Shown piece by piece: positions 3,963-56,084 of a stretch of DNA of 64,000 bases. A program made the translations under genes and the position numbers. Every line of letters begins with the position of its first letter. The first letter of the stretch is position 1. Source of the DNA: Muribaculaceae bacterium (lineage in GTDB: Bacteria; Bacillota; Clostridia; Lachnospirales; Lachnospiraceae); NCBI GenBank assembly GCA_023666425.1, contig JAMPCA010000001.1:551692-615691 (forward strand), read 5' to 3'. The notes beneath the pieces were generated by a model. That model had not been told where the DNA came from and searched no databases. It was given only the letters and a program-made list of their open reading frames with translations.

Positions 3963-4571
3963 TTATTTATTACAGAAGCAGTCGAAGTCAGGATTAAATG
4001 CATAGAAGTTCTTACTGTCCAGATCCTCCTGCACCATTCGAAGCGCTTCGCCGAAACGCTGAAAATGCACGATTTCCCTCTCACGCAGGAAGCGGATCGG
4101 GTCTGCCACCTCATGGTCGGTCGCGAGACGCAGAATATTGTCATAGGTCTTTCTGGCCTTCTGCTCCGCCGCAAGATCCTCCACAAGGTCTGCGATGGCA
4201 TCGCCGCTGGACTGGAACTCGCAGGCATTGAACGGGATACCGCCTGCCGCCTGCGGCCAGATTCCCGCGGTGTGGTCGATATAGTAGGGGGCAAAGCCGG
4301 CAGCCTCCAGTTCCTGCGCGCTTAAGCCCTTCGTCAGCTGACGCACGATGGCGCCGATCATCTCAAAGTGGGCAAGCTCCTCCGTACCAATATCGGTCAA
4401 AAGTCCGGCTACTCTCGCATTATAAGTGGAAAAGCGCTGGGACAGATAACGGGTGGAGGCGGAAAGCTCTCCGTCCGGCCCGCCATACTGACTGATAATA
4501 TAGGAGGCCAGCTTGGCGTTTGGCGTTGTAATATTAACCGGATACTCTAATCGTTTTTCATAACTCCACAT
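3963..4571 (-). CDS. cotJC: Spore coat protein CotJC, manganese-catalase-like
   Basis: This 202-aa protein matches CotJC of the spore coat, a ferritin-fold relative of manganese catalases. Helix segments carry the metal ligands, including EELAHFE (about residues 65-71), AAEQKARKTYDNI (about residues 140-152) and EREIVHFQRF (about residues 169-178). In Bacillus the cotJ operon is made in the mother cell under sigma-E, and CotJA and CotJC depend on each other for assembly into the coat. It is the last gene of cotJABC, starting 3 bp after the cotJB stop. The ATG is preceded by GGAAGGAGGAAG. It probably protects spores from peroxide, but activity is not shown by sequence. Confidence 0.93.
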   Translation of the reverse strand: MWSYEKRLEYPVNITTPNAKLASYIISQYGGPDGELSASTRYLSQRFSTYNARVAGLLTDIGTEELAHFEMIGAIVRQLTKGLSAQELEAAGFAPYYIDHTAGIWPQAAGGIPFNACEFQSSGDAIADLVEDLAAEQKARKTYDNILRLATDHEVADPIRFLREREIVHFQRFGEALRMVQEDLDSKNFYAFNPDFDCFCNK

Positions 4572-4574
4572 AGA

Positions 4575-4883
4575 CTATCTTCCTCCTTCCCACGGCATCG
4601 GCGCCGTATTCCAGTCCCACTCCGCAAGAGGCCCGCCAGAGAAGGCGTTTAACTGGCAAAAACGCTCCTCATAGACTCTTTTGGCGGAATTATAGAGTTC
4701 TGTGCACTGATTAAAGTATTCGAGTGCTTCCTGATCCTTCGGATGTGTGTCCATATACAGAAGCATATCGTAAGCGCAAAAGCCCAGCATAGACACCCAC
4801 TCAAAAAGCTCCCTCTGGTTCATTCTCATCTCACAGTTCGCCTGCGTGTTCTGCTGATTCATCATGTTCTGCTGATTCATCAT
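4575..4883 (-). CDS. cotJB: Spore coat protein CotJB
   Basis: This 102-aa protein has the CotJB pattern: LFEWVSMLGFCAYDMLLYMDTHP followed by a helical region and a Trp/Pro-rich end (WDWNTAPMPWEGG). It is needed for normal coat assembly together with CotJA and CotJC. The N-terminus contains a direct repeat of MMNQQN (residues 1-6 and 7-12), encoded by a short tandem DNA duplication; this is not conserved in the family as far as I know. GGGAGG precedes the start, and the ATG overlaps the cotJA stop by 4 bp, suggesting translational coupling. Confidence 0.9.
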   Translation of the reverse strand: MMNQQNMMNQQNTQANCEMRMNQRELFEWVSMLGFCAYDMLLYMDTHPKDQEALEYFNQCTELYNSAKRVYEERFCQLNAFSGGPLAEWDWNTAPMPWEGGR

Positions 4884-5086
4884 CTTCTTCTACCTCCCCT
4901 GCACCTTCCGGTAAATGGCATATCTAATTCGGGGAAAATGGTCCCTGCCATCAGCGCACGCTTCGGGTCATAGGTCTGTCCGAAGGTCTGCCAGGGCACA
5001 TAGGCCATGCCCACTACCCAGTTTGCGCAATCATCGTTATCGCCAGTCCTGCCACGGCCTGTCATATTCATGTCGCAATCCATCAT
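4880..5086 (-). CDS. cotJA: Spore coat protein CotJA
   Basis: This 68-aa protein ends in the typical CotJA core YVPWQTFGQTYDPKRALMAGTIFPELDMPF, followed by a short Arg/Gly tail. The N-terminal 25 residues are Asp/Asn-rich and variable. It is the first gene of the coat operon, and cotJB overlaps its stop. The ribosome site is weak (AAAGGA about 12 bp before the ATG). I could not settle on a sigma-E promoter: CATATGAT about 45 bp upstream resembles a sigma-E -10 element, but no matching -35 is obvious. Confidence 0.88.
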   Translation of the reverse strand: MMDCDMNMTGRGRTGDNDDCANWVVGMAYVPWQTFGQTYDPKRALMAGTIFPELDMPFTGRCRGGRRR

Positions 5087-5150: not shown

Positions 5151-5181
5151 AAAAAAAGCGTCTCTGCTTTTACAGAGACGC
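5151..5181 (-). terminator. Rho-independent terminator of the four-gene cluster
   Basis: The perfect 9-bp stem GCGTCTCTG/CAGAGACGC (5158-5166 with 5173-5181) is followed on the minus strand by seven T (5151-5157). The stem overlaps the last codons of the coiled-coil gene, whose stop is at 5170-5172. Confidence 0.88.
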
Positions 5182-6408
5182 GTTGATTTCTTCAAGCTTT
5201 CTTATAATCTGCTGTACCTGCGGGCCGTTACTGTCCAGTTGGTTCACCTGACCCATGACCTCCTTTTTCATGTCGGTAATCGTATTGATATTGTATTCGA
5301 TTCTCGCCCGAAGCTTTTGCCTGCGGGTGAGAAGGTCATGCTTGAGTTCTACCATCTCCCGGGGATCAAGGATGGCATTGGCATGGCTTGCCCATATCTT
5401 TGCATCATAAAAATGCGCCTCCTGCAGCGTGAGCACAAGCTCTCTGGTATAGTGATCCAGATTGTCGTTATTGCGCCGGAATTTTTCCCTCTCCCGCATC
5501 TCCTGCTGGTAAAGCTCAAACATATAAGCCAGATCCCGGGAATTCTTTGTGTGATATTTCTCACAGGTGTAATCCACGGCATTTTTAATGTTGACATACT
5601 TGATCTTCACATGATTTTCCAGAGTGATGGCGTGGTTCCGGTTTACGTCCGCCTGCCGGATCTCCTTTCCCGCATCCTGGTAACGGACAAGGAGAAAAAC
5701 GCCAAGAATCGCCGCAAGTCCGGTGCCGAGCAGCATGGGAATCTGGGTGTTCTGTTTCAGGACAAGTGTAAGGATAAGCAAAAACGCCTCTAAGGTGGCA
5801 TAAATGACCAAAAGATACACCGAAAGACGGCGTATGGTCTTTTGCTGTTCTTTTCCCTCGGATTTCTGCATGGCCCACTGGAGCTTTTCTCCCTCCAGAT
5901 AGCTCATATCCTTCCTGATGGCGTCCAGATAGGTCTCGTTGGATTTGAGACGCTTGATCACACCCGGAAGCTGTGTCTCCTCCGCCTGGAGCTGGGCAAA
6001 CTGTGTATCCGGCAGATGGCGTTCCGTTTTTAAAAAATCTGTGCGTTCCTGCTCCAGACTGACCATATGGGTCGCGCACTCCACGAGAGGAGCCTTCTCC
6101 TCCGCAGTCATATTTTCGATGGTCTGAATATCGTTCAGATAATTTGTCACAATCTGATACTCTGCGCGGGTATCCTCCAGCTCCCGGGAGATATCAATCA
6201 TCTGCTCGCACAGAGCGATTACATCATGCCCGGCATCGATGCTCTTTTTTGTGCGGGGGCGCGGCGTCTCGCGCGCCTGCTTCACCTGCTTCTTTTCTTT
6301 CTCCTCCTCCAGCTGGGCATAGTGGGTGCCTGCTGCCTCCTCGCGGTATTCCTCCCGCTCGTATTTATTTTTGCGTCTGCTTCGAAATAGTCTCTCTAAT
6401 AGCTTCAT
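5170..6408 (-). CDS. Coiled-coil protein with two membrane segments, unknown function
   Basis: I do not recognise the function. The 412-aa protein starts with a very basic and charged segment (residues 1-55), then a long predicted coiled coil (about 60-190). Two adjacent hydrophobic helices follow (about 195-217 and 223-241), with a short loop between them, and then a second long charged helical region (about 245-412) with a HYTRELVLTLQEAHFYDAKIW stretch. Both helical arms probably face the cytoplasm, since the membrane hairpin returns the chain to the same side. It is the last gene of the cluster starting at 12016 and begins 3 bp after the preceding stop, so it may be the membrane anchor for the soluble partners. 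There is no enzyme motif. Confidence 0.8.
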   Translation of the reverse strand: MKLLERLFRSRRKNKYEREEYREEAAGTHYAQLEEEKEKKQVKQARETPRPRTKKSIDAGHDVIALCEQMIDISRELEDTRAEYQIVTNYLNDIQTIENMTAEEKAPLVECATHMVSLEQERTDFLKTERHLPDTQFAQLQAEETQLPGVIKRLKSNETYLDAIRKDMSYLEGEKLQWAMQKSEGKEQQKTIRRLSVYLLVIYATLEAFLLILTLVLKQNTQIPMLLGTGLAAILGVFLLVRYQDAGKEIRQADVNRNHAITLENHVKIKYVNIKNAVDYTCEKYHTKNSRDLAYMFELYQQEMREREKFRRNNDNLDHYTRELVLTLQEAHFYDAKIWASHANAILDPREMVELKHDLLTRRQKLRARIEYNINTITDMKKEVMGQVNQLDSNGPQVQQIIRKLEEINASL

Positions 6409-6411
6409 ATC

Positions 6412-7227
6412 CTACATCCTACAGTTTTTCCGATAGTCTTCCTTCCATGTGAAAATCAGCGCGGCAATTTCCTGCTTCGCCTGCCCTGCCTCTTTTTCCA
6501 TAATGCTCTTTAAACGCTCTTCAAAAGCGAGAGCCGTCTCTGTGCGGGAGGCGAGGGCAAATTCCTCCTTCAGCTGCTGCATTTCACTCTCGTCCAGATG
6601 GTGCTCCCCTGCCCTTTCGGCAAACTCCTCCCCGTTGTGCATACACAGACAGCACAGCAGCATTTCCCGGAGAGATTCCATGGACTGGTTTCTCTCGTAT
6701 GCCTGCCCGTAACAGTGAAGCGCCTCCCCGAAAAGAAACAGACGGGCGTAAGCCGTTCCAAGATTATGCCAGACTGTCCCCACGATGAGGGCGTTCTCGT
6801 TCTTCACTTCCTCCGACTCCAGCAGACGCTTGTATTCATAGATGCTGCTGATGTATTTTTCATTTTCCATGAGTCGGTCGGCTCTGAGCTTGCTGCACTC
6901 AAAATCCGTCTTTTCCTCCATCTGGTGAACCACCAGAAGGATTTCTTTGATCTCCTTTGGAGAATAATAGCAGGTATCCACCAGAAGCGTCTCGACAAAC
7001 TGCGAGAGGCTTTCGGCGCTCCGAAGCTTTTCTGCCAGTTTATAGAGCCCCATCTCCTGCTCCACCCAGGCGCAGAGTTCCTCGCTCTTAAAGGAGCTGT
7101 CTAAAAGATAAGTGTTGCCTGCAATATAATAACACAGCTCCTCCATGGAGTAAAGATTTACGCCCGCGCCCTCCACATAAAAGGGAAGGGCGGCAATCGG
7201 TTCATTGCATAATAATAGCTCTCCCAT
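6412..7227 (-). CDS. Helical-repeat (TPR-like) protein of unknown function
   Basis: This 271-aa protein appears entirely alpha-helical. A TPR-like segment lies around NALIVGTVWHNLGTAYARLFLFGEALHCYGQAY (about residues 145-180), preceded by a region typical of helical adaptor proteins. There are no catalytic motifs, signal peptide or membrane segments, so it is probably a cytoplasmic scaffold. The start at 7227 (MGELLLCNEP) has TAGGGGAA upstream and lies 10 bp after the stop of the actin-like gene; a longer reading into that gene is less likely. Its place between an actin-like ATPase and a membrane coiled-coil protein suggests that it bridges them. That is inference. Confidence 0.78.
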   Translation of the reverse strand: MGELLLCNEPIAALPFYVEGAGVNLYSMEELCYYIAGNTYLLDSSFKSEELCAWVEQEMGLYKLAEKLRSAESLSQFVETLLVDTCYYSPKEIKEILLVVHQMEEKTDFECSKLRADRLMENEKYISSIYEYKRLLESEEVKNENALIVGTVWHNLGTAYARLFLFGEALHCYGQAYERNQSMESLREMLLCCLCMHNGEEFAERAGEHHLDESEMQQLKEEFALASRTETALAFEERLKSIMEKEAGQAKQEIAALIFTWKEDYRKNCRM

Positions 7228-7237
7228 CGCGTTTCCC

Positions 7238-8467
7238 CTACATTGACATTGTGTATTTCCAGATTTTGTCCGTGCCGCGGAAGAATTCTCCAAAGCCCAG
7301 ATCCCGAATTTCTATCTCGATGCGGTCGTCCGAGACGGGCTTTGCCAGTATCCGCACCCTTGTCGTTTTATCGGGGCGCGGAGGCAGATCGGTGAGCTCA
7401 AGCGTCTCAATCTTCGCCTCCCGGCTGTTGGGAAGCTGTTTCCAAAAATCCACAGAGCCCGTTCCCGACAAAATTACCTCGCACTCTCCCATTGCCTCGA
7501 ACCAGTTGCGTCCCGCACTGACTAAATTGTGAAAAGCCATCGTGCCCTTGTCCCTCACCTTGAGACTCAGATTGAACTTCATCTCGTTCTCACCCATGTA
7601 GATACAGGGCCAGTCCCTTCCACGCGCGGCCGCCGCATAACAGGCTCCCTTGGAAAATAAGTTTTTCCCGAGGAACGCCCGGCGCCCCCGGCACAGATAA
7701 TTTAAGGACTGCTCCATCCAGCCGCCGTCGAAACCGTCTCCCACCAGATATACGGTAGAAATCATATGTCCCTCGAAGGATTTTTGCAGCAGCCTTAGAA
7801 ATGCTTCGTCCCGCTCTCCCTCTATCGACGCCCGGCTGTTCTCATGGATGGACACGACCTGCGGCTTTGTGCGGCGGTCCCGTTTCAGCTCGTAGGAGCT
7901 GACCGTATCCCCCGTACATTCAAACAGAAATACCTTGTGGAGCCACAGCTCCTCCTTCTGGGATAATGCATAATAATAAAAGCTCTCTTTGTGGTCTGTC
8001 ACCATGAATTTATCCGGCGGAATGCTGAGGAGTGAGGCCACCCTCCAGAATACTTCCATGTTCTCTTTATTCAGCCTCTCGACGGAGAGCACCAGTGTGC
8101 CCATTGCACCGGGACTGCCAAGCTTCTGCGGAAGCTCTATGACCCTGCGGAGAAACAGCGCTAAGAGCTCCACCGCCTCATAGTTTTCCTCGCCGACGCT
8201 GATCACCTCATGGTTCACCGCCCGCCACAGCAGAGAATCCACACAGATCACCTCGCTGGTCTTTGCCATGCGCTTTGCCTCGTCTCCGTAATACCAGAGT
8301 CCGAGATTCTGCCGTCTGGCAAGAATCGCAGGAATGTGGTACAGTTCGCTGCCCGCAACGGCACTCACCGTGTCCGGCTCATCCATATCCGGTTGGTAGT
8401 AGCTTACCATGGCAAAGGCGTCATTTAAGTCAATGCCAAGGTCATAGGTCTTTTTCTTTTCTTCCAT
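7238..8467 (-). CDS. Actin/Hsp70-fold (ASKHA-like) protein, probable DUF5716 family
   Basis: This 409-aa protein reads like a divergent member of the actin-Hsp70-hexokinase fold. The start YDLGIDLNDAFAMVSYY resembles the first phosphate loop, VFLFECTGDTVSSYEL (about residue 184) resembles the second with the usual Gly-rich core eroded, and STVYLVGDGFDGGWMEQSL followed by FSKGACYAA resembles the adenosine-binding segment and the helix after it. From memory it fits the DUF5716 family, found beside DUF5717 in Lachnospiraceae; I cannot verify the number here. The changed phosphate loops make ATP hydrolysis doubtful, although binding is possible. It starts 9 bp after the DUF5717-like gene and is surely co-transcribed with it. 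Confidence 0.75.
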   Translation of the reverse strand: MEEKKKTYDLGIDLNDAFAMVSYYQPDMDEPDTVSAVAGSELYHIPAILARRQNLGLWYYGDEAKRMAKTSEVICVDSLLWRAVNHEVISVGEENYEAVELLALFLRRVIELPQKLGSPGAMGTLVLSVERLNKENMEVFWRVASLLSIPPDKFMVTDHKESFYYYALSQKEELWLHKVFLFECTGDTVSSYELKRDRRTKPQVVSIHENSRASIEGERDEAFLRLLQKSFEGHMISTVYLVGDGFDGGWMEQSLNYLCRGRRAFLGKNLFSKGACYAAAARGRDWPCIYMGENEMKFNLSLKVRDKGTMAFHNLVSAGRNWFEAMGECEVILSGTGSVDFWKQLPNSREAKIETLELTDLPPRPDKTTRVRILAKPVSDDRIEIEIRDLGFGEFFRGTDKIWKYTMSM

Positions 8468-8476
8468 ACGCTCATC

Positions 8477-11400
8477 CTAAATAATCTGAAACAGCTTTTT
8501 CGTCGCTTCATCAAAGGCCGCATACTGCTTCATATTGTGGTACAGAGTCGATTCGTCCTGCAGGGTTCCGGAGATCAGCATCTGGTTGATCAGGCCGTAA
8601 CGGCTCTCATCCTCTGCGGTATACACATCGTTATTTGTGATCCGGCGGCTCTCGGTGACTTCCACCTGATTCCCATTTTCTTTTGAAATGTAATACTGTA
8701 TCGTCTCCCCAAAGAACATGACAAAGGGTTTTACAAATATACCGCAATACACCTCGGGCATGTCCTCTGTCACAAAATTCTCCCCATCTTCGTCCCGGCT
8801 GTAGTGAAGCGTCACATGGCTTCTCGGGGCGGCGCGGAACTCCAAAAAGGTCTTGTCATAGAGATGATATTTCTGGATCAGATGGCGGCTCAGCTTCCGG
8901 TAAAAGGAAAAATACATGTTTCGGCGGGTGTACTCGCCAAGAAGCTCCTCCTCGATGGCGGGCTCATGCTCCTTCTCCTCCGCTAAAGATTTAAATAGGG
9001 CGAGCCTGCAGGCGTCGTTTAGATCCTGATGGGCGGTATAGCGGGACTTTATCAGCCGAAGCAGCTCCGGGTGGATCGGCGCATTCTCCACAAAATAGGC
9101 CTGGGCGCTGGCACTTAAAAATGCGAGGATGACAAGTTCTTTTCCCCCTGCGTTGTAATAGCTCTCAAAGATGGCCTCGCCCTCATGCAGATCATGGCCT
9201 CCATAGATCATCTGTACGAGAATCCGCTCCTCCAGCTCAAAAGCGTCCACCTGAAATCTTTCCGCCGCCTTCCAGATTTCGCACATCCGCTCTGTCGGCC
9301 CGTTATAATAGCGGCACAGATAGCCCAGCATGGTATCGTTATATTTTTTCTGGAAAAAAGAGGTCTCTGTGAGAAGAAGAAGGTACTCATCCGCCTCCTC
9401 GCTGTCCTCCTCCTGCCGCCCGATCATGGCGCTCGCCAGCGCGACCCTGGCGGCAGCGCCGAGCTGATCCATACCGTAAATCTGAATCAGCTCATAAGCC
9501 TGCTCATAGAGACGCTTCTCCACCAACGCATCCAGCATAAAACGCCGCACGGTCTGGGGCATCTGTGAAAAATCCGCCTGCTCCAGATATGCCTTTACGT
9601 CGCCGTCGTCCTCCCTTGTCCGGTAAAAACGCAGAATTTCCATGGCGGTCTGGGACTGATAGACCGGGGAAAGCTCCTTTGTAAAAAGCATTCGGTGAAA
9701 ATACTGCTGATCCTCCGGAGAAAAACGCCGATAGCTTTTGCGCTTATCAAAATATGGAATCAGGTAAGGAAGCTCCTCTGGCGCCAAATGCATACATTTG
9801 GTCAGATAGCGTTCGGGCTCCATCAGTTTTTGCAGGCGGTAGGATACACTGCCGATATACCTTCGCCCCTTCTCGTCCTCAAACAGTATCACAGAATCCT
9901 TTGTGTACATCTGGAAATAGGCAGACTGCTCCACAATGGAAACGATCTGTGGTTCCTTTAGCTGTCTCTGGTAGATGATGGCACGCACCATGCGGGAATC
10001 AAAGACCACCAGCTTGTGGGTAAAGAGGATGCGCGCCAGACAGTGCGCGATCTCCCCGTCCACAAAGCCAAGATCCAGCATATCCTCGTAGAGTACCGCA
10101 AGATTGTCGTCCATATGCTCGGCCTCGATCTGCTCCATGGCAAAGCGTCCCATGATGCGCCGATACTTTTCGTAGACCTCGGGATTCTTCTCCTTATTGG
10201 CAATGATATTGTTGTACAGGATTGCCATCTTCCGGTAGGAAAGGCTGCTCTTATACTGAAAATACATCTGAATGATTTTCGGCACCGGTGCAATCCCGCG
10301 TTCATCAAAGGATAGAAGGTATGCCTCATACAGGCTGGTGATGCGCAGCTCCAGCTCGATTCCCATCTCAAACCAGTGATGGTACTGCTTGTCAAAGCGC
10401 TGGGCGCGGATCAGGTAACTGCAGATGACGCCAACGTACTCCGGCCTTGGGTCGATTCCGTAGGCAGCCGCCAAAAGCCCATAATGTATGGGATCAAAGC
10501 CGTTGTTCATATCCACTACCTGGAAGATCTGTGCCGCCAGCTCTTTATTCAATGCCTGGCGGCGCAGCGCCCAGCGCAGGATCTTAACCTCAAAGCGGCC
10601 GAGCTTTGCGAGAAGGTACGGATCCTGACAATAGAGATAATAGGCCTCCAGATACAGGTAGGGCGTGTTTGCCCCCTTCATAATCCAGTACTGGACAGCC
10701 TCCAGCTTATGGGCGTTATTGTTATAGTATTCCTCTTCCAAAAAGGACAGCACCCAGAAGAGAAGCACGGAATTTGGATTTTCGTGGAAAATCACCTCAA
10801 TCTCCCGGGTCATTTTATCCACATAGGCGGGCTCCCGCTCCATGAGCGTCATAAGATAAAGGTAATAGCCCCACACCGGCGACTTTTTGTCGTGCCAGCT
10901 GCGCCGGAAATCTTCAAGTATCCACTCCGCCTCCTGCCGCTGTCTGTTGATCAGAAAGGCCTGCGCTTTCATCAGGGGGTACATGGGCTCCTCCGGATCC
11001 AGTACATGCAGATGATTCAGGATATCTATGGTCTCGTTCGCCCACACGCCGGTGACGATGCGGTTCAGGCGGTAGGCCTGGTACAGCTCCATGATTCCTG
11101 CCCTGTCTTCCCGTATCTGCTGGTGGATGTTTTCCTCCTCCTGTATCTGCGCTCCCTTGTGTGCCCTGACCTCGATGTAACGGGTCTCATAGACCGTGGA
11201 AAAGCTGATCCTGCCATAATTCCAGCCTGCGTGCATCCTGTCGTAGTCGATCAGATACTGATAGGGGTAAGTACTTCCGAGAAAATCCTCCGAGACCAGC
11301 CGTTCCTCCGTCAGCCGGAGAAAATCTGCGTCGGAGGAGACACTGATCGAGAGATATCCCCACTCGTCTTTTCGAAGCTCCACGGTCTGCTGACTGGTTT

Positions 11401-12016
11401 CCGTAAGCTCTGTTATGCGGCAGCTTGTCTGGTCGATGCGGAAATTGATGGGATTTTTTCTGCCAATCCCAATCAGGAACTCCTCCATGTTCTGGGGCGA
11501 AGGCTTTGCGCCGACAATGCCCTTATAGATCATGGCTTCCTTATATTCTGCTTTGCTGATGATACTGGAAAAGCCCTTGTGATAGAACAGCCGGTAGGCC
11601 TCGTCCCACTTCTCGCGGGCAAGTGCAGTGAAATCGTGCAGATTTCTGATCGGACCCATGGAACTGTCCGCGCAGGGTCTGGAGATGGACACACAAAAAG
11701 AAAGGGTATGCTCACTTTGATCACATACAATGACAAAGCTACCCTCTACGGTATCGCCCTCCACGAGCCCTCTGCTATGAAACTGATAGCGAATCCGCAC
11801 CTCTTCCCCGTCAAACTGCGGAGTCAGACACTCCATTCTATGGCTCGTGGAATAGACAATCCCACGAAGGGAAGTGTGGTTTGTGCTTGCCAGGGTGAAG
11901 CCCCCCGAGTACTCCTGCTCCTCAAGCACAGACAGCTTCAGCTCCTCTGGAATGGAGAGCGACGGCTTTTCGCAGTCAAATCTGCCTGCGGCAATCTGTC
12001 TGATCTGTTTACGCAT
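8477..12016 (-). CDS. Giant helical-repeat protein, probable DUF5717 family
   Basis: This 1179-aa protein is the first gene of the four-gene cluster. The N-terminal 300 residues look beta-rich (two modules with alternating hydrophobic strands, for example VRIRYQFHSRGLVEGDTVEGSF). Residues about 310-1040 are helical repeats of TPR/HAT style, with many Tyr, Trp and Leu at regular spacing. The last 110 residues return to beta structure (DMPEVYCGIFVKPFVMFFGETIQYYIS). There is no signal peptide, membrane helix or catalytic motif. I associate it from memory with DUF5717. It probably acts as a large scaffold or sensor with the actin-like partner. The ATG has AGGTAGG just upstream. Confidence 0.78.
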   Translation of the reverse strand: MRKQIRQIAAGRFDCEKPSLSIPEELKLSVLEEQEYSGGFTLASTNHTSLRGIVYSTSHRMECLTPQFDGEEVRIRYQFHSRGLVEGDTVEGSFVIVCDQSEHTLSFCVSISRPCADSSMGPIRNLHDFTALAREKWDEAYRLFYHKGFSSIISKAEYKEAMIYKGIVGAKPSPQNMEEFLIGIGRKNPINFRIDQTSCRITELTETSQQTVELRKDEWGYLSISVSSDADFLRLTEERLVSEDFLGSTYPYQYLIDYDRMHAGWNYGRISFSTVYETRYIEVRAHKGAQIQEEENIHQQIREDRAGIMELYQAYRLNRIVTGVWANETIDILNHLHVLDPEEPMYPLMKAQAFLINRQRQEAEWILEDFRRSWHDKKSPVWGYYLYLMTLMEREPAYVDKMTREIEVIFHENPNSVLLFWVLSFLEEEYYNNNAHKLEAVQYWIMKGANTPYLYLEAYYLYCQDPYLLAKLGRFEVKILRWALRRQALNKELAAQIFQVVDMNNGFDPIHYGLLAAAYGIDPRPEYVGVICSYLIRAQRFDKQYHHWFEMGIELELRITSLYEAYLLSFDERGIAPVPKIIQMYFQYKSSLSYRKMAILYNNIIANKEKNPEVYEKYRRIMGRFAMEQIEAEHMDDNLAVLYEDMLDLGFVDGEIAHCLARILFTHKLVVFDSRMVRAIIYQRQLKEPQIVSIVEQSAYFQMYTKDSVILFEDEKGRRYIGSVSYRLQKLMEPERYLTKCMHLAPEELPYLIPYFDKRKSYRRFSPEDQQYFHRMLFTKELSPVYQSQTAMEILRFYRTREDDGDVKAYLEQADFSQMPQTVRRFMLDALVEKRLYEQAYELIQIYGMDQLGAAARVALASAMIGRQEEDSEEADEYLLLLTETSFFQKKYNDTMLGYLCRYYNGPTERMCEIWKAAERFQVDAFELEERILVQMIYGGHDLHEGEAIFESYYNAGGKELVILAFLSASAQAYFVENAPIHPELLRLIKSRYTAHQDLNDACRLALFKSLAEEKEHEPAIEEELLGEYTRRNMYFSFYRKLSRHLIQKYHLYDKTFLEFRAAPRSHVTLHYSRDEDGENFVTEDMPEVYCGIFVKPFVMFFGETIQYYISKENGNQVEVTESRRITNNDVYTAEDESRYGLINQMLISGTLQDESTLYHNMKQYAAFDEATKKLFQII

Positions 12017-12058
12017 TACCTACCTGCTCTTTTGTGTAAAACACTATGAATTCATTCT

Positions 12059-12087
12059 ATTATATGATAAAAAGCGTTCACATGCAA
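12059..12087 (-). promoter_or_regulatory. Promoter of the four-gene actin-like cluster
   Basis: TTGCAT (12082-12087) and the perfect TATAAT (12059-12064) are spaced by 17 bp on the minus strand, about 35 bp before the first gene. It lies just after the stop of the P-type ATPase gene, so the cluster has its own vegetative promoter. Confidence 0.8.
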
Positions 12088-51399: not shown

Positions 51400-52173
51400 T
51401 TACTGTGCTTCCAGCTTTTTCTTCTGCTGGCGTCCCGCGAGACGTATATAGACCGACTGGGGGAGAAAACGCCCCAGAGATGTGGAAAGCTGCATCGTCG
51501 CGGTGGGAACAATGAGAGGCTTACGCCTTTTCATGCCCTCTATGGCACAGTCCACACAGCGCTCCGCCGAAATTCCCGGAAGTGCAAACTCTACATTGGC
51601 CACATTGTTAAACTCTGTATCCACCGGCCCCGGACAGAGCGCGCCGAGATACACCCTGCTCCCCTGCTCCTTAAGCTCCTGCGCCACCGCCCTCGTCAGG
51701 CTCGCAACGTATGCCTTTGTGGCGTAGTAGGTTGCCATATAGGGACCCGCCGGGATCAGTCCGGCAGAGGAAGCCACATTCAAAAGATAGCCGCCGCCCT
51801 GCGCCTGCATTTTTTGAAGAACAAGCTTAGTCAGCAGATGAACCGCCCGCACATTTACATCAATCATTTGAAGCTCTTTGTCCACCTCTGTCTCCAGAAA
51901 AGAGCCGCAGTCGCCGAAGCCCGCATTGTTGATAAAGACGCCGACCTTTTTGTCCGCAAGCGCCTGGATCAGACGGCGGCACTCCTCTTCTTTCGAAAGA
52001 TCCGCCGCAAATACCTCGCACTCTGTCCCGGTAAGCCTGTCCGCACACTCCAAAAGGCGTTCCCTGCGCCTTGCCACCAGAAAAAGCCGGTATCCCTCCT
52101 TCGCCAGACGCCTGGCAAATTCCGCCCCGATACCGGAGCTCGCCCCCGTAATAACCGCATATGTCTGTTTCAT
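51400..52173 (-). CDS. Short-chain dehydrogenase/reductase
   Basis: This 257-aa NAD(P)-dependent enzyme has the SDR motifs TGASSGIG (residues 8-15), NNAGFG (about residues 84-89), the catalytic Ser in NVASSAG (about residue 138) and the YATKAYV box for Tyr and Lys, in a classical DltE/YqjQ-like form. The start at 52173 follows GGAGGG 9 bp upstream; an upstream in-frame ATG would add 15 residues without a comparable site. The substrate is unknown. Confidence 0.88.
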   Translation of the reverse strand: MKQTYAVITGASSGIGAEFARRLAKEGYRLFLVARRRERLLECADRLTGTECEVFAADLSKEEECRRLIQALADKKVGVFINNAGFGDCGSFLETEVDKELQMIDVNVRAVHLLTKLVLQKMQAQGGGYLLNVASSAGLIPAGPYMATYYATKAYVASLTRAVAQELKEQGSRVYLGALCPGPVDTEFNNVANVEFALPGISAERCVDCAIEGMKRRKPLIVPTATMQLSTSLGRFLPQSVYIRLAGRQQKKKLEAQ

Positions 52174-52284
52174 AAAATACTCCCTCCTATACATTTTTTC
52201 AATTGCATACAGCTCCATTATTAAACGCTCTATATTCAGATCAAATGCAAACAGCCGGCTAATACATTGATTCAGAAGGCAGAC

Positions 52285-53082
52285 TCAAATAAAAAACTCA
52301 CAATAATGCTCCTTCTGGTATTCATAAATTTGTCGGATTCTGTCGGATACACGGTTTCCATAAATCTGTTCTATCACACTCAGACATTCCGAAGTGTCAA
52401 AATCTGAAACAGACAGCTGCTTTCCATATAAATGCTCACATACCTCCATCTGTGCATCAAATTGAAGAGAAAACGGTTTTGCAGATACATTTGGAATCAG
52501 ATCCTTAACATTGCCCCCAAGAGGATAATCATTTCTTGTATCTGACAAAAAGGCAGCACCATTGTCAAATACCGGACACACTTCAAAAGAACCGTCATAA
52601 TTTTGAAGCACTGCAATATTATGAAAGTGGCGGTCTTCATTTAGCGTTATGGCATCCAGCTCCAAAAGCATGGTAAGGTATGCACCGAAATCGCTAATAT
52701 CTGTCATTGCTTCCATGCAGTCAACAAACTGTTCAATCCTGCCTTCCAGACCATAATCGCAAATGACGTAATCAGCCAGCTTGCCATATTGTGCCATAAA
52801 AAGCCTTTCTGCAGTAACAATGCGCTGTCCATCATGCAGAAAATCATTTGACACACAACCTGCCAGCATACGGCCATTATACTGTATATAATCAATACTA
52901 TATTCTACATAGGTACATACATTTGAATGTTCAAGTATCTTATATACAAAATATTCTGCAGCGCCCTCATATCCCAGAAAATCAGCCTTATACCATATAT
53001 TATCAACTTTCCATTTCAACTGATTGCCTTTAGAAGAATGTACTTCAGATTCTGTCAGACTGGCTTCACTCAAAATAATCAT
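52285..53082 (-). CDS. HipA/CtkA-like protein kinase
   Basis: This 265-aa protein has the elements of the HipA-type kinase core: the glycine-loop-like SSKGNQLKW (about residues 17-25), ATP-binding Lys in WYKADFLGYEGAAEYFVYKI with Glu in the following helix, the catalytic loop LNEDRHFHNIAVL (Asp and Asn present), and FDNGAAFLSD in place of DFG. All catalytic residues are therefore kept. It resembles short HipA-fold kinases such as CtkA of Helicobacter rather than full HipA. The ATG at 53082 is 8 bp after GCAGGAG. The target is unknown. It is translated in tandem with the 102-aa partner gene and is AT-richer than its neighbours. Confidence 0.75.
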   Translation of the reverse strand: MIILSEASLTESEVHSSKGNQLKWKVDNIWYKADFLGYEGAAEYFVYKILEHSNVCTYVEYSIDYIQYNGRMLAGCVSNDFLHDGQRIVTAERLFMAQYGKLADYVICDYGLEGRIEQFVDCMEAMTDISDFGAYLTMLLELDAITLNEDRHFHNIAVLQNYDGSFEVCPVFDNGAAFLSDTRNDYPLGGNVKDLIPNVSAKPFSLQFDAQMEVCEHLYGKQLSVSDFDTSECLSVIEQIYGNRVSDRIRQIYEYQKEHYCEFFI

Positions 53083-53087
53083 AAACA

Positions 53088-53396
53088 TCACTCCTGCACA
53101 ATTTTCAGCCACATGGCATCATCAGCCAGCCTTCCGGCTGTCTTATGTATAATGGCTAATGGTTCATAATGACTGACGCCAATATCATGCAACACCCATT
53201 TCAGATGATCCCGTGTTTTTGGAAAACACCTGCTTTCAAGAAAATATTCATAATCTGCAAATGTCGGATTCTCATTGATGCCAAATGCCCTTGCAATCAG
53301 ATCATCCGTATAGTTTTCGATTTTCACGCTTTGCGTTTTATAATCCACCACTATTTTCGTGGAAAGCTTATCCCTGTCATAATACTCCAGAACCAT
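53088..53396 (-). CDS. Small partner protein of the HipA-like kinase
   Basis: The protein is 102 aa from the ATG at 53396, which has GGTGGGTGGGG upstream; longer readings would cross the promoter. It contains an acidic N-terminal part, then a conserved-looking segment FADYEYFLESRCFPKTRDHLKWVLHDIGVSHYEPLAIIHKTAGR ending in WLKI. I recall this segment in clostridial genes that precede HipA-like kinases, and it may supply the missing N-terminal subdomain or act as the antidote. No helix-turn-helix is evident. Its TGA lies 8 bp before the kinase ATG. Toxin-antitoxin function is inferred from layout only. Confidence 0.62.
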   Translation of the reverse strand: MVLEYYDRDKLSTKIVVDYKTQSVKIENYTDDLIARAFGINENPTFADYEYFLESRCFPKTRDHLKWVLHDIGVSHYEPLAIIHKTAGRLADDAMWLKIVQE

Positions 53397-53460
53397 AATA
53401 TCATTCCCCACCCACCATGTATAGAGAGCCGGATTCTTTCCGGTTCTTAACAATCTATAT

Positions 53461-53489
53461 ATTATAGCACCTTTTAAGGTGCTATGCAA
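53461..53489 (-). promoter_or_regulatory. Kinase-pair promoter whose spacer is a palindromic operator
   Basis: TTGCAT (53484-53489), 17 bp, TATAAT (53461-53466). The palindrome 53464-53485 (10-bp perfect arms ATAGCACCTT/AAGGTGCTAT, 2-bp centre) fills the spacer and touches both boxes, an ideal place for a repressor. Confidence 0.75.
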
Positions 53490-53521
53490 GAATGTAAAAA
53501 ATGACGATGCAGAGGCAAAGT

Positions 53522-53587
53522 AAAAACACGGACAAGCTGCCGCCATTACAGATTCGTTCTCTGTTCCGGCAGCAGCTCTGCATTTTG
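53522..53587 (-). terminator. Terminator after the 58-aa secreted peptide
   Basis: Arms 53535-53544 and 53578-53587 pair with one bulge on each side, and inner ACAGA/TCTGT also pairs. The hairpin is followed on the minus strand by GTTTTTAC. It ends the transcript that starts near 54191. Confidence 0.6.
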
Positions 53588-53615
53588 TATTATTTCTTTC
53601 CTTTGATTTGTCCTC

Positions 53616-53792
53616 TTATTTCAGCTTTATAACCTGTCCGATGCCGATGGCATGATCTTCATAATCGTATGAATAGAATACATCCTCATCTACTTCCGCC
53701 GCCTCTGCGAGCATGTATCCAGACGGCATAATCCCCATGACAATCGCAAACGTCATCATTACTGCCAAGAATTGTTTTACTCGTTTTCTCAT
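53616..53792 (-). CDS. Small secreted peptide or truncated surface protein
   Basis: This 58-aa product starts MRKRVKQFLAVMMTFAIVMG, a classic signal peptide with basic start and hydrophobic core, ending around AEAAEVDED; only about 25 residues remain after cleavage (rich in Asp, Glu and Tyr). It has a strong ribosome site (GAGGAGGAAG). The signal peptide is like those of large Lachnospiraceae surface proteins, so it may be a cut-down remnant. A terminator-like hairpin follows soon after, which makes a stand-alone small gene also plausible. Confidence 0.5.
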   Translation of the reverse strand: MRKRVKQFLAVMMTFAIVMGIMPSGYMLAEAAEVDEDVFYSYDYEDHAIGIGQVIKLK

Positions 53793-53840
53793 TTTACTTC
53801 CTCCTCGTTTTACAAATACTAATTCCAGCTCATGGTTTCG

Positions 53841-53877
53841 GCAAACGAAACAGCAGGCTGAAGAATCGCAGCCTGCT
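53841..53877 (-). terminator. Hairpin between the RNA candidate and the small peptide gene
   Basis: The 9-bp perfect stem AGCAGGCTG/CAGCCTGCT (53869-53877 with 53852-53860) and 8-nt loop are followed by GTTTCGTTTG on the minus strand. It could end the RNA or modulate expression of the 58-aa gene. Confidence 0.45.
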
Positions 53878-53951
53878 TTCAAACTCCGACTTCCCACGCA
53901 AAATTTCCGATGGCAGGCCAAAAGCTGCCCACCATCAGAGCATTTTTGTGT

Positions 53952-54191
53952 GAGAAATCAAGAACAAGGTGCCAGTATGCGTCCACACCAAACACCTTGC
54001 CAATATGTCATAAGGGTACAAACAACTCACAACACACACTTTCCTTGTTGTAAAACAAGAGATAATCGCTTATAATAAGTCGTGTGTATCGCAGACTTGT
54101 CTGTATTGTGTGGTAGGTCTATTACCATCTTTGCCCTAAGAGGCGGCAACCTCTTAGGGTGATCACACCTAGATTGTTCTTGATATTCTCA
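53952..54191 (-). ncRNA. Structured RNA candidate of about 240 nt
   Basis: On the minus strand a closing helix joins 54175-54190 to 53952-53966 (15 bp with one bulged A). Inside are a 10-bp hairpin (54134-54143 with 54150-54159), a helix 54102-54110 with 54028-54036 (9 bp, one G-U), and a 6-bp hairpin at 54044-54059. A promoter ends just upstream (54198-54226). There is no open reading frame of note. The design recalls large clostridial RNAs such as the raiA motif, but identity is not established. Confidence 0.55.
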
Positions 54192-54197
54192 ATCCAT

Positions 54198-54226
54198 ATT
54201 TTACCATACCGTTGAGAGATTGACAA
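54198..54226 (-). promoter_or_regulatory. Promoter of the structured RNA
   Basis: TTGTCA (54221-54226), 17 bp, TAAAAT (54198-54203). The start point near 54191 coincides with the 5' end of the closing helix. Confidence 0.68.
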
Positions 54227-54364
54227 GCCAGAACTTTATCATGTTTTGATGTAACCTTTATATAATAGGCGCTGCAGGCGAAACATGGGAAACCAGAAGC
54301 GGAATCGGCAGAGCTGGAGCTGCGTATATTGAAGCTTTTTTACTAAAATAGAAGGAATGTAAAA

Positions 54365-55216
54365 ATGACGATTGACGATAATATTCGATTTGCGAAAAAA
54401 TTATTGGTAGAAAACATATACCATTCCATCAATATTGAGGGAATTGCCATGACTTTCCCTGAAACGCAGACAATTGTAGACGGTATGAGTGTGAAAGGAC
54501 ACCGTATTGAGGATATCAATGCGGTCAATGATTTAAAAAATGCATGGTATTATATTTTAGATACCATTCAGAAAGACTATGCCGAGCCGGTCACATTAAA
54601 ACACATTCAGAAGATAAACCATGTGCTTGGCAGGTTTACAGTTCTAAATGCCGGACACATTCGCAATATGTTTGACGAACCGGTAGGAATTGGCGGTACA
54701 TCGTGGCAGCCGTCTCTGCCTCCCAAAGAGGCGGAAATTGAGCAGGAACTTGCACGAATCCTGTCGAATTCAGATATCTACGAGGCGGCGCTGGATTTAT
54801 TTTGTTATATTGTCCGCCGCCAGTTATTTTTGGACGGGAATAAACGAACGGCTACGCTGGCTTCAAATATGTATCTGATCGGGCATGGGGCAGGAATTTT
54901 TTCAATTCCTGCTGAAAAAAAGGAATCATTTTATAAGGAACTGATTGCCTATTATGAATCCGGCGATGCAAAAAACTTAAAAGAGTTCTTATATCCCTGC
55001 ATTACAAAATCATATACGAAAACGCTGGGTCAGCGTCTGCAGATACTGCGGCAGAATGCAGGACTGAACCGGGAACAGGCAGCCATAAAGCTTGCAATCC
55101 CAAAAGAACGGCTGTTTTCCCTGGAATTAGATGAAGAAATTCCTACGAACGAAGAACTTGTACGCATTTGTGGATATTTTGAAATGGAACCGGAAGTACT
55201 TACAGACCTTTCATAA
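54365..55216 (+). CDS. Fic-fold protein with XRE-type helix-turn-helix, atypical Fic motif
   Basis: This 283-aa protein has a Fic domain (about residues 1-210) and a C-terminal XRE-like HTH (about 216-283, LGQRLQILRQNAGLNREQAAIKL). The N-terminus has the inhibitory-helix pattern S-x-x-x-E-G (SINIEG, residues 21-26), placing it with class II Fic proteins. The active-site motif reads QLFLDGNKR (153-161): the catalytic His of HPFxxGN(G/K)R is Gln153, so classical AMP transfer is doubtful. Fic enzymes modify target proteins with nucleotides; the HTH may give autoregulation. It overlaps the convergent gene by 6 bp. Bases 54241-54364 hold no intact gene. Confidence 0.8.
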   Translation: MTIDDNIRFAKKLLVENIYHSINIEGIAMTFPETQTIVDGMSVKGHRIEDINAVNDLKNAWYYILDTIQKDYAEPVTLKHIQKINHVLGRFTVLNAGHIRNMFDEPVGIGGTSWQPSLPPKEAEIEQELARILSNSDIYEAALDLFCYIVRRQLFLDGNKRTATLASNMYLIGHGAGIFSIPAEKKESFYKELIAYYESGDAKNLKEFLYPCITKSYTKTLGQRLQILRQNAGLNREQAAIKLAIPKERLFSLELDEEIPTNEELVRICGYFEMEPEVLTDLS

Positions 55217-55537
55217 CAAAAAACACTCTGCGTTTTCTGGGAGCAGTTCTGAAATATTTTCATTCAATTCCTGCAACATATCAAAAATATTTGATATCCC
55301 CTTCATCCACATTTCTTTATCCTTCGCGTGCAAAGGGAGCGCCTCCGGCATATGGGCGACAAACTCCCGTGAAGCTGGAAAATATTTGATTGTGGGATAA
55401 ATCATCATTTCCTGATAATCAGGAATGAATTTTAATAAATATTTATGAGAATCCCTTTTCTGAACTGATATGTGGTAGCCATACCCGTGCAATAATTTCT
55501 CTGTATTATCATTTTTCTCAATTCTAATATTCCTCAT
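55211..55537 (-). CDS. Protein of unknown function, coupled to the 55534 gene
   Basis: I do not recognise this protein (108 aa from ATG 55537). It has a basic beta-type N-terminal half (HGYGYHISVQKRDSHKYLLKFIPDYQEMMIYPTIKYF) and an acidic helical end. There is no signal peptide or membrane segment. The ATG overlaps the TGA of the upstream gene (ATGA), so the two are translated together. It is convergent with the Fic gene. Confidence 0.58.
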   Translation of the reverse strand: MRNIRIEKNDNTEKLLHGYGYHISVQKRDSHKYLLKFIPDYQEMMIYPTIKYFPASREFVAHMPEALPLHAKDKEMWMKGISNIFDMLQELNENISELLPENAECFLL

Positions 55538-56019
55538 TCTCTTGCCCATTCCTTGTAATCTCTATTTGCAATCTGTCTGCCGCTATTGGAATATTCTTCC
55601 ACCAGTTCATCAAAGGACTTTTCACAATGGATTCCTTCCAGGTAAGCATTCGTAATGATACAAGCAATAAATTCTGCAACTTTGTACCGATTATCTATGT
55701 CGAAGTCGCACACCAACGGAATATTATATTTCTTACATATTTCATTGATTTCCCGGCATGACTGTATAGCAACATCATGCAAATTTCGCCGTTCTTCATC
55801 CATATGCTTATACATATACTCGGATACAGATGTCCAGCTTATTACTGACTTGGAATATATGTTCATTTTGACAATATGGTTAAAATAATCACCAAAGCTA
55901 TTCAAACAAGCAGTAAGCACTTTACAGTCCTGAATTTTTTCATCGTCATTTCTTGTCTCTTTTAGTTTGTCAAATATCTCCGTTATGCCATTTTGCATTT
56001 TTCGCACATTCCCTTTCAT
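55534..56019 (-). CDS. Helical protein of unknown function
   Basis: This protein of about 161 aa (from ATG 56019; a GTG at 56040 would add seven residues) appears entirely helical: KVLTACLNSFGDYFNHIVKM, SVSEYMYKHMDEERRNLHDVAIQS, VAEFIACIITNAYLEG. It may belong to a small clostridial DUF3232-like family, which I recall only vaguely. A TATAAT box at 56069-56074 is upstream. With the coupled gene it could be an accessory regulator or toxin-antitoxin style pair; nothing in the sequence proves this. Confidence 0.58.
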   Translation of the reverse strand: MKGNVRKMQNGITEIFDKLKETRNDDEKIQDCKVLTACLNSFGDYFNHIVKMNIYSKSVISWTSVSEYMYKHMDEERRNLHDVAIQSCREINEICKKYNIPLVCDFDIDNRYKVAEFIACIITNAYLEGIHCEKSFDELVEEYSNSGRQIANRDYKEWARE

Positions 56020-56084
56020 TTTCTGTTCCGCTTCCACCACTTGATGATAGGCATATCCTACTTTATATATTATAGTCTCTTTTA

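Follow-up and report, generated by a model that had tools for sequence, protein, structure and literature searches.

A four-gene cluster around a predicted pseudo-Hsp70, probably reduced from a multi-Hsp70 operon

The DUF5717-DUF5716 cluster and its surroundings

We analyzed a 64,000-nt window of Muribaculaceae bacterium (GCA_023666425.1, JAMPCA010000001.1 positions 551,692 to 615,691, forward strand; all coordinates below are those of the window) with respect to a cluster of four genes on the minus strand, which encode a DUF5717 protein, a DUF5716 protein, a TPR-like protein and a protein with a membrane hairpin. The open reading frame (ORF) list and inspection of the sequence placed these genes 9, 10 and 3 bp apart, as the original prediction of a four-gene cluster with gaps of 3-10 bp had it. 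The cluster is more than a chance finding, as indicated by the Pfam scores of DUF5717_N, DUF5717_C and DUF5716_C and by a gene order kept across genera. The features are as follows.

8477..12016, minus strand: DUF5717 protein, 1179 aa, candidate scaffold (PF18984, 6.5e-281; PF18983, 2.7e-98)
10025..11143, minus strand: first alpha-solenoid array of DUF5717, residues 292-664 (AlphaFold model)
8870..9817, minus strand: second alpha-solenoid array of DUF5717, residues 734-1049 (AlphaFold model)
8636..8854, minus strand: C-terminal beta domain of DUF5717, residues 1055-1127
7238..8467, minus strand: DUF5716 protein, 409 aa, predicted pseudo-Hsp70 and Hsp2 ortholog (PF18980, i.e., DUF5716_C, 2.4e-106)
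7238..7600, minus strand: retained Hsp70 substrate-binding beta domain of DUF5716, approximately residues 290-409, lid absent (alignment, predicted model, DnaK alignment)
6412..7227, minus strand: TPR-like adaptor, 271 aa, start ATG 7227 (TPR_2, 5e-05, under the gathering cut-off; profile match to the TPR protein of relatives)
5170..6408, minus strand: coiled-coil protein with membrane hairpin, 412 aa (hydropathy; profile match to the membrane protein of relatives)
5686..5814, minus strand: two predicted transmembrane helices of the hairpin protein, residues 199-241 (hydropathy peaks 199-217 and 223-241)
12059..12087, minus strand: putative promoter, with a perfect TATAAT (12064-12059), a weak TTGCAT (12087-12082) and a 17-bp spacer, read by eye
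5158..5181, minus strand: terminator-like stem of intrinsic type, 10 pairs followed by T7, overlapping the last stop codon

The longest frame of the third gene starts at TTG 7293 (293 aa) and overlaps the upstream DUF5716 gene; the ATG at 7227 is preceded by aggggaaacgcg, gives 271 aa and leaves the 10-bp gap, and is most likely the true start. One promoter and one terminator had been proposed to enclose the cluster. A scan of the whole window returned 13 terminator-like sites against 10.2 +/- 3.1 in shuffled sequences, so the case for a terminator depends on the quality of the stem at 5181-5158 itself. A promoter upstream of the DUF5717 gene is plausible from its sequence; it was absent from the consensus promoter scan, whose total was 8 sites against 9.2 in shuffles.

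Directly downstream of the terminator, also on the minus strand (3963-5086), lie genes for CotJB (4575-4883) and a CotJC-type manganese catalase (3963-4571), and the frame at 4880-5086 (minus strand) next to CotJB is presumably CotJA. A sporulation link suggested by these neighbors was rejected, since DUF5716 is kept in all eight genomes of the window's family that are at least 90% complete and have no Spo0A_C match (G031, G036, G040, G048, G063, G065, G066, and G071). More widely, valS was found near the cluster in 8/24 loci, not always adjacent, and MgsA/RarA in 5/24, from which no hint of function was gained. Elsewhere, a Fic-domain protein (54365-55216) and a DUF3232 protein (55534-56040) are encoded in the stretch at 52000-56000, which is low in GC (37-42%) and may have been acquired.

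A predicted pseudo-Hsp70 and its three partner proteins

DUF5716 is a clear member of its Pfam family (355.4 bits against a cut-off of 34.7), and its predicted model combines an actin-like nucleotide-binding domain with a following substrate-binding beta domain, i.e., the order expected of the Hsp70 superfamily. A PDB search with the single sequence gave no match. In the model, strands run from residue 299 to 408, no helix lies beyond residue 281, and DnaK aligns up to residue 408; the chain stops after the beta domain, and the alpha-helical lid (SBD-alpha) is lacking. Relative to DnaK of the same genome, 83 residues of lobe II are missing. Of the positions which we take to be conserved ATPase residues, in the numbering and with the roles of E. 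coli DnaK, K70 and E171 are each kept in 0/52 family sequences, T199 in 3/52, D194 in 19/52, and D8 in 46/52. With the ATPase residues and the lid both lost, DUF5716 is classed as Hsp70-derived rather than as an active Hsp70, and the computed fold and residue losses point to a catalytically dead Hsp70 (pseudo-Hsp70). The dN/dS median was 0.085, but only 2 of 435 same-genus pairs were unsaturated, which makes this test of selection uninformative.

The original prediction had described an eroded actin/Hsp70-like core and named absence of the ASKHA (acetate and sugar kinases, Hsc70, actin) fold as its refutation. The fold was found, and the description can be narrowed: the retained substrate-binding beta domain argues for Hsp70 rather than generic actin, specifically for a dead member of the multi-Hsp70/GrpE operon of relatives described below. 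A filament had also been suggested. An actin-like filament or cytoskeletal machine would suit a fold of the actin/Hsp70 superfamily next to a coiled-coil membrane partner; nevertheless, the closest matches of DUF5716 are Hsp70s, their substrate-binding beta domain included, most of the ATP-site residues checked and the lobe II segment are gone, and nothing points to polymerization, so that this explanation is extremely improbable.

The DUF5717 protein likewise belongs to its family, its N and C parts scoring 934.6 and 329.4 bits against curated cut-offs of 25. The AlphaFold model, over residues 292-1179, supports the proposed giant helical scaffold. VIA-align matched only generic helical repeats, apart from one beta-domain match, and a search of the DUF5717 profile against PDB sequences gave no match below 0.8. 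Profile-profile comparison connected the third protein, already read as TPR-like, with the TPR protein of relatives (3.4e-32) and the fourth with their membrane protein (1.7e-43); DUF5717 of the relatives' locus L047 matched that of the window at 1.3e-67. One hhalign control, the DUF5716 profile against TPR, was not clean (1.1e-11, alignment columns 462-669), probably because the DUF5716 alignment includes the tail of a DUF5716-TPR fusion (L069). For the fourth protein there was no credible Pfam match; the hydropathy peaks bear out its predicted membrane hairpin, and its coiled-coil character was read from the sequence by eye, without a predictor.

Distribution of the cluster and the larger operon of relatives

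We surveyed 145 related genomes, 90 from the window's family (f1) and 55 from other families of the order. PF18980 was found in 111 of them, comprising 85/90 in the window's family and 26/55 elsewhere, and DUF5717 likewise in 85/90 genomes of the window's family. DUF5716_C and DUF5717_N occurred together in 109/145 genomes; DUF5716_C stood alone in two (G081 and G140), and DUF5717_N was found without DUF5716_C in three (G026, G094 and G134). Nearly all carriers of the window's family have one DUF5716 copy, and carriers in other families have mostly two matching frames of roughly 480-630 aa. In a sample of 391 genomes from the class, both families scored above the cut-off in the same 16; weak matches in G457 (2.7e-4) and G259 (8.3e-5) were dismissed, no operon gene being found there. 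We examined 23 loci of the window's family: the window itself, loci from 20 of the 28 other sampled genera, and two additional members with low scores. The order DUF5717-DUF5716-TPR was kept in 22/22 loci whose contig covers it, so that the other refutation named with the original prediction, a gene order not conserved in relatives, did not arise either. In L069 DUF5716 and TPR are fused into one protein of 713 aa, which argues for physical contact between the two.

The fetched and annotated loci of relatives revealed a longer series of genes that recurs among them. It consists of DUF5717, whose N part is encoded separately in some operons, Hsp1 (a 559-aa Hsp70), a protein ending in a GrpE domain, Hsp2, Hsp3 (a 546-aa Hsp70), Hsp70-VWA (an Hsp70 with a fused VWA domain), a TPR protein and a membrane protein of coiled-coil type. 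Hsp2 is the DUF5716 ortholog, which in L040 matches DUF5716_C and HSP70 and in L047 DUF5716_C alone. We also scanned 84,980 species genomes for two short patterns taken from the VWA half, a search which relatives without these patterns can escape. It reduced 104 candidate stretches to 79 loci, including the Lachnospirales members Defluviitalea phaphyphila and Petrocella sp. FN5, metagenome-assembled genomes (MAGs) of Candidatus Epulonipiscium and many Defluviitaleaceae and Clostridiales MAGs; the Gemmataceae hit L173, a lone VWA protein, was a false positive. Hsp1, GrpE, Hsp2, Hsp3 and VWA were consecutive labeled ORFs, between which unlabeled ORFs may intervene, in 39/79 loci, with DUF5717 ahead in 30 and TPR after in 31; the remaining loci include short contigs and MAGs with scattered genes. 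In L106, L123 and L143 (termite-gut or similar Defluviitaleaceae), unlabeled genes separate Hsp2, Hsp3 and Hsp70-VWA, and in the MAG G092 (L047/L168) two frames (198 + 494 aa) make up the Hsp70-VWA gene, TPR likewise being divided between two ORFs. We found no description of this multi-Hsp70/GrpE/VWA operon in the open-license PubMed Central literature, where the one paper that names DUF5716 is, judging from its title, on an unrelated subject.

All 14 ATP-site residues checked were invariant in Hsp1 (35/35), Hsp3 (61/61) and Hsp70-VWA (75/75). In Hsp2, K70, T199 and D201 were kept in 0/46 sequences, the D201 position being occupied by Arg in 43, and D8 and D194 were kept in 44/46; thus one of the four Hsp70s appears pseudoenzyme-like already within the larger operon. 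Hsp2 also evolves faster, with a mean tip depth of 1.8 against 0.44-0.48 for the other operon Hsp70s (FastTree). An HPD tripeptide occurs in 15/64 Hsp3 ORFs, probably by chance since the two Hsp3 proteins scanned had no J-domain match.

Trees were inferred with FastTree on 111 tips and with IQ-TREE on 51 tips, the latter without L170 and L172. DUF5716 of the window's family forms one clade (ultrafast bootstrap, UFBoot, 100; FastTree 0.986) nested in Hsp2, its sister being the Hsp2 of L168 from a full operon (UFBoot 99; FastTree 0.98) and its next relative Hsp3 (UFBoot 100; FastTree 0.998). L170 and L172 (UBA4039 and UBA2432) have a short Hsp2 of 412/415 aa on a long branch (2.6), with the larger operon present; they were rejected as intermediates, because their deletion sites differ from those of the window's family.

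The live Hsp70s appear to have been lost from the window's family. Hsp70-VWA (threshold E at most 1e-120) was found in 0/90 genomes of this family against 26/55 others; it was the only component judged by whole-genome search across the other genomes of the family, and Hsp1, Hsp3 and the GrpE-domain protein, which were judged by locus, were not found in the cluster in the own-family loci examined. Outside the family, 25 of 26 DUF5716_C carriers have Hsp70-VWA; in G134, conversely, Hsp70-VWA is present but DUF5716_C gave no match. G104, the one carrier that lacks Hsp70-VWA, has a split DUF5717 beside DUF5716, then unrelated genes, and its other Hsp70 matches are one DnaK and MreB-size matches; G131 of the same family (f16) keeps the other Hsp70s, and G104 seems to have been reduced separately. 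Besides DnaK, the window's own genome encodes two other Hsp70-like proteins and a single GrpE, and none of its Hsp70s matches the operon Hsp70s better than ordinary DnaK (best 276 bits). One Hsp70-like protein of this genome (555 aa, G000 contig C11:246848-248422, L074 and L079; 415 bits to HSP70), encoded beside a 584-aa protein, is neither the GrpE-adjacent DnaK nor a cluster member.

These data also bear on the direction of change. An ancestral four-gene form, with intact Hsp70s and GrpE gained in other families, would suit the fact that almost every genome of the family sampled best contains this form; yet both trees nest the family's DUF5716 within Hsp2 as sister to a full-operon sequence, DUF5716 itself belongs to the Hsp70s, its closest paralog being the Hsp3 from the same operon, and G104 lacks intact Hsp70s which its relative G131 has. 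An ancestral four-gene form is thus highly improbable.

Proposed mechanism and comparison with known systems

With somewhat better than even probability, we consider the cluster to derive by reduction from a dedicated Hsp70 machine, which in the window's family lost its ATP-driven parts and kept a dead Hsp70, a scaffold, an adaptor and an anchor. First, the retained DUF5717 and DUF5716 would form a permanent complex, to which the TPR protein may bind through DUF5716, with the hairpin protein beside them in 11/23 loci and anchoring the complex to the inner face of the membrane. Second, DUF5716 would dock clients or partner peptides without a nucleotide cycle, using a substrate-binding beta domain that has no lid together with a nucleotide-binding domain that is frozen. 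Third, the whole may work independently of ATP, as a scaffold for assembly or as a holdase, like Ssz1 in the ribosome-associated complex (RAC). A bolder version, which we hold only tentatively, is that the whole family runs such an ATP-free, membrane-tethered pseudo-Hsp70 machine, the dead paralog replacing a GrpE-driven complex of four Hsp70s. In this version, the complete engine would persist in relatives as a novel type of multi-Hsp70 complex, in which one Hsp70 is fused to VWA and an exchange factor belongs to the complex itself.

Several findings weigh against this picture. The basis for complex formation is linkage, co-occurrence and one fusion. The hairpin gene adjoins the TPR gene in only those 11 loci, so membrane tethering may be dispensable, and in G104 neither the TPR nor the hairpin gene adjoins the DUF5717/DUF5716 pair. 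DUF5717_N occurs without DUF5716_C in G026 (82% complete) and in G094 (80% complete), which has no Hsp70-VWA match either, and neither family was found in 31/145 genomes, including a few incomplete ones of the window's own genus. (The DUF5717-type gene of G094 is a 1352-aa frame at contig C132:7386-10313.) In addition, 42/43 sequences in the alignment behind the DUF5716 model are Hsp2 of relatives, so the model is not entirely independent of the sequence evidence, and the DUF5717 model spans residues 292-1179, with residues 1-291 outside the prediction. Finally, the housekeeping DnaK and GrpE of the window's genome mean that the complex may still be ATP-driven through them, with DUF5717 or DUF5716 as a co-chaperone hub recruiting them in place of the lost Hsp70s. 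The presence of these Hsp70-like proteins in that genome speaks for such recruitment, and the non-canonical Hsp70 Ssz1 is reported to serve the active Hsp70 Ssb in yeast RAC (PMC7083937). The four window proteins, however, have no J-domain or GrpE match in Pfam, and no part of the cluster is known to contact DnaK; we regard a hub of this kind as unlikely.

Under the reduction scenario, two DUF families of the window's family would gain an origin and a testable role. Since the dedicated active Hsp70s were lost and the dead one kept, the own role of a pseudo-Hsp70 becomes testable, and isolates with the full set (Defluviitalea phaphyphila and Petrocella sp. FN5) can be compared to members of the reduced family.

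Among known systems, DnaK-GrpE resembles the relatives' operon, which encodes a GrpE-domain protein and three Hsp70s whose ATPase residues are intact. The operon differs in being a fixed set that also includes scaffold, VWA, TPR and membrane components, and its Hsp70s end shortly after the beta domain or continue into VWA. Among described gene sets, the HSP70+GrpE theme of GAP1-N2 GTPase neighborhoods (eLife 2020, PMC7159879) comes closest. It is reported to comprise HSP70 and GrpE along with an FNIII protein that carries fused DnaJ or TPR repeats, and a subset adds a second HSP70 which lacks the peptide-binding domain; HSP70, GrpE, a second HSP70 and a beta-domain protein fused to TPR repeats are common ground. 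This likeness would favor a defense or conflict system. Those systems, however, contain a GTPase and GAP1-N2, and the operon proteins of L040 and L047 had no GTPase or GAP1 Pfam match up to E 0.1; the four window proteins matched 0 PADLOC families at E up to 1, and matches of the L040 operon were weak (best 2e-09). The cluster is family-wide, mostly single-copy and kept in order, unlike the patchiness expected of defense genes. A defense role is accordingly quite improbable.

The nearest mechanism to that of a reduced Hsp70 machine is Ssz1 of the fungal RAC, reported to be a lidless Hsp70 which binds ATP without hydrolyzing it and whose pairing with its partner is fixed (PMC7083937). In the model of DUF5716 the lid is absent, and ATPase residues are lost from its sequence. 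Ssz1 still binds ATP, whereas in DUF5716 more of the ATP-site residues appear to be gone, along with part of lobe II; furthermore, Ssz1 works with two partners, a J-domain protein and an Hsp70 that is active, neither of which is encoded in the cluster. As the original prediction had noted, DUF5716_C and DUF5717 were described only as domains of unknown function, and their Pfam entries state the function as unknown; here, both families are linked to Hsp70 and to a larger operon.

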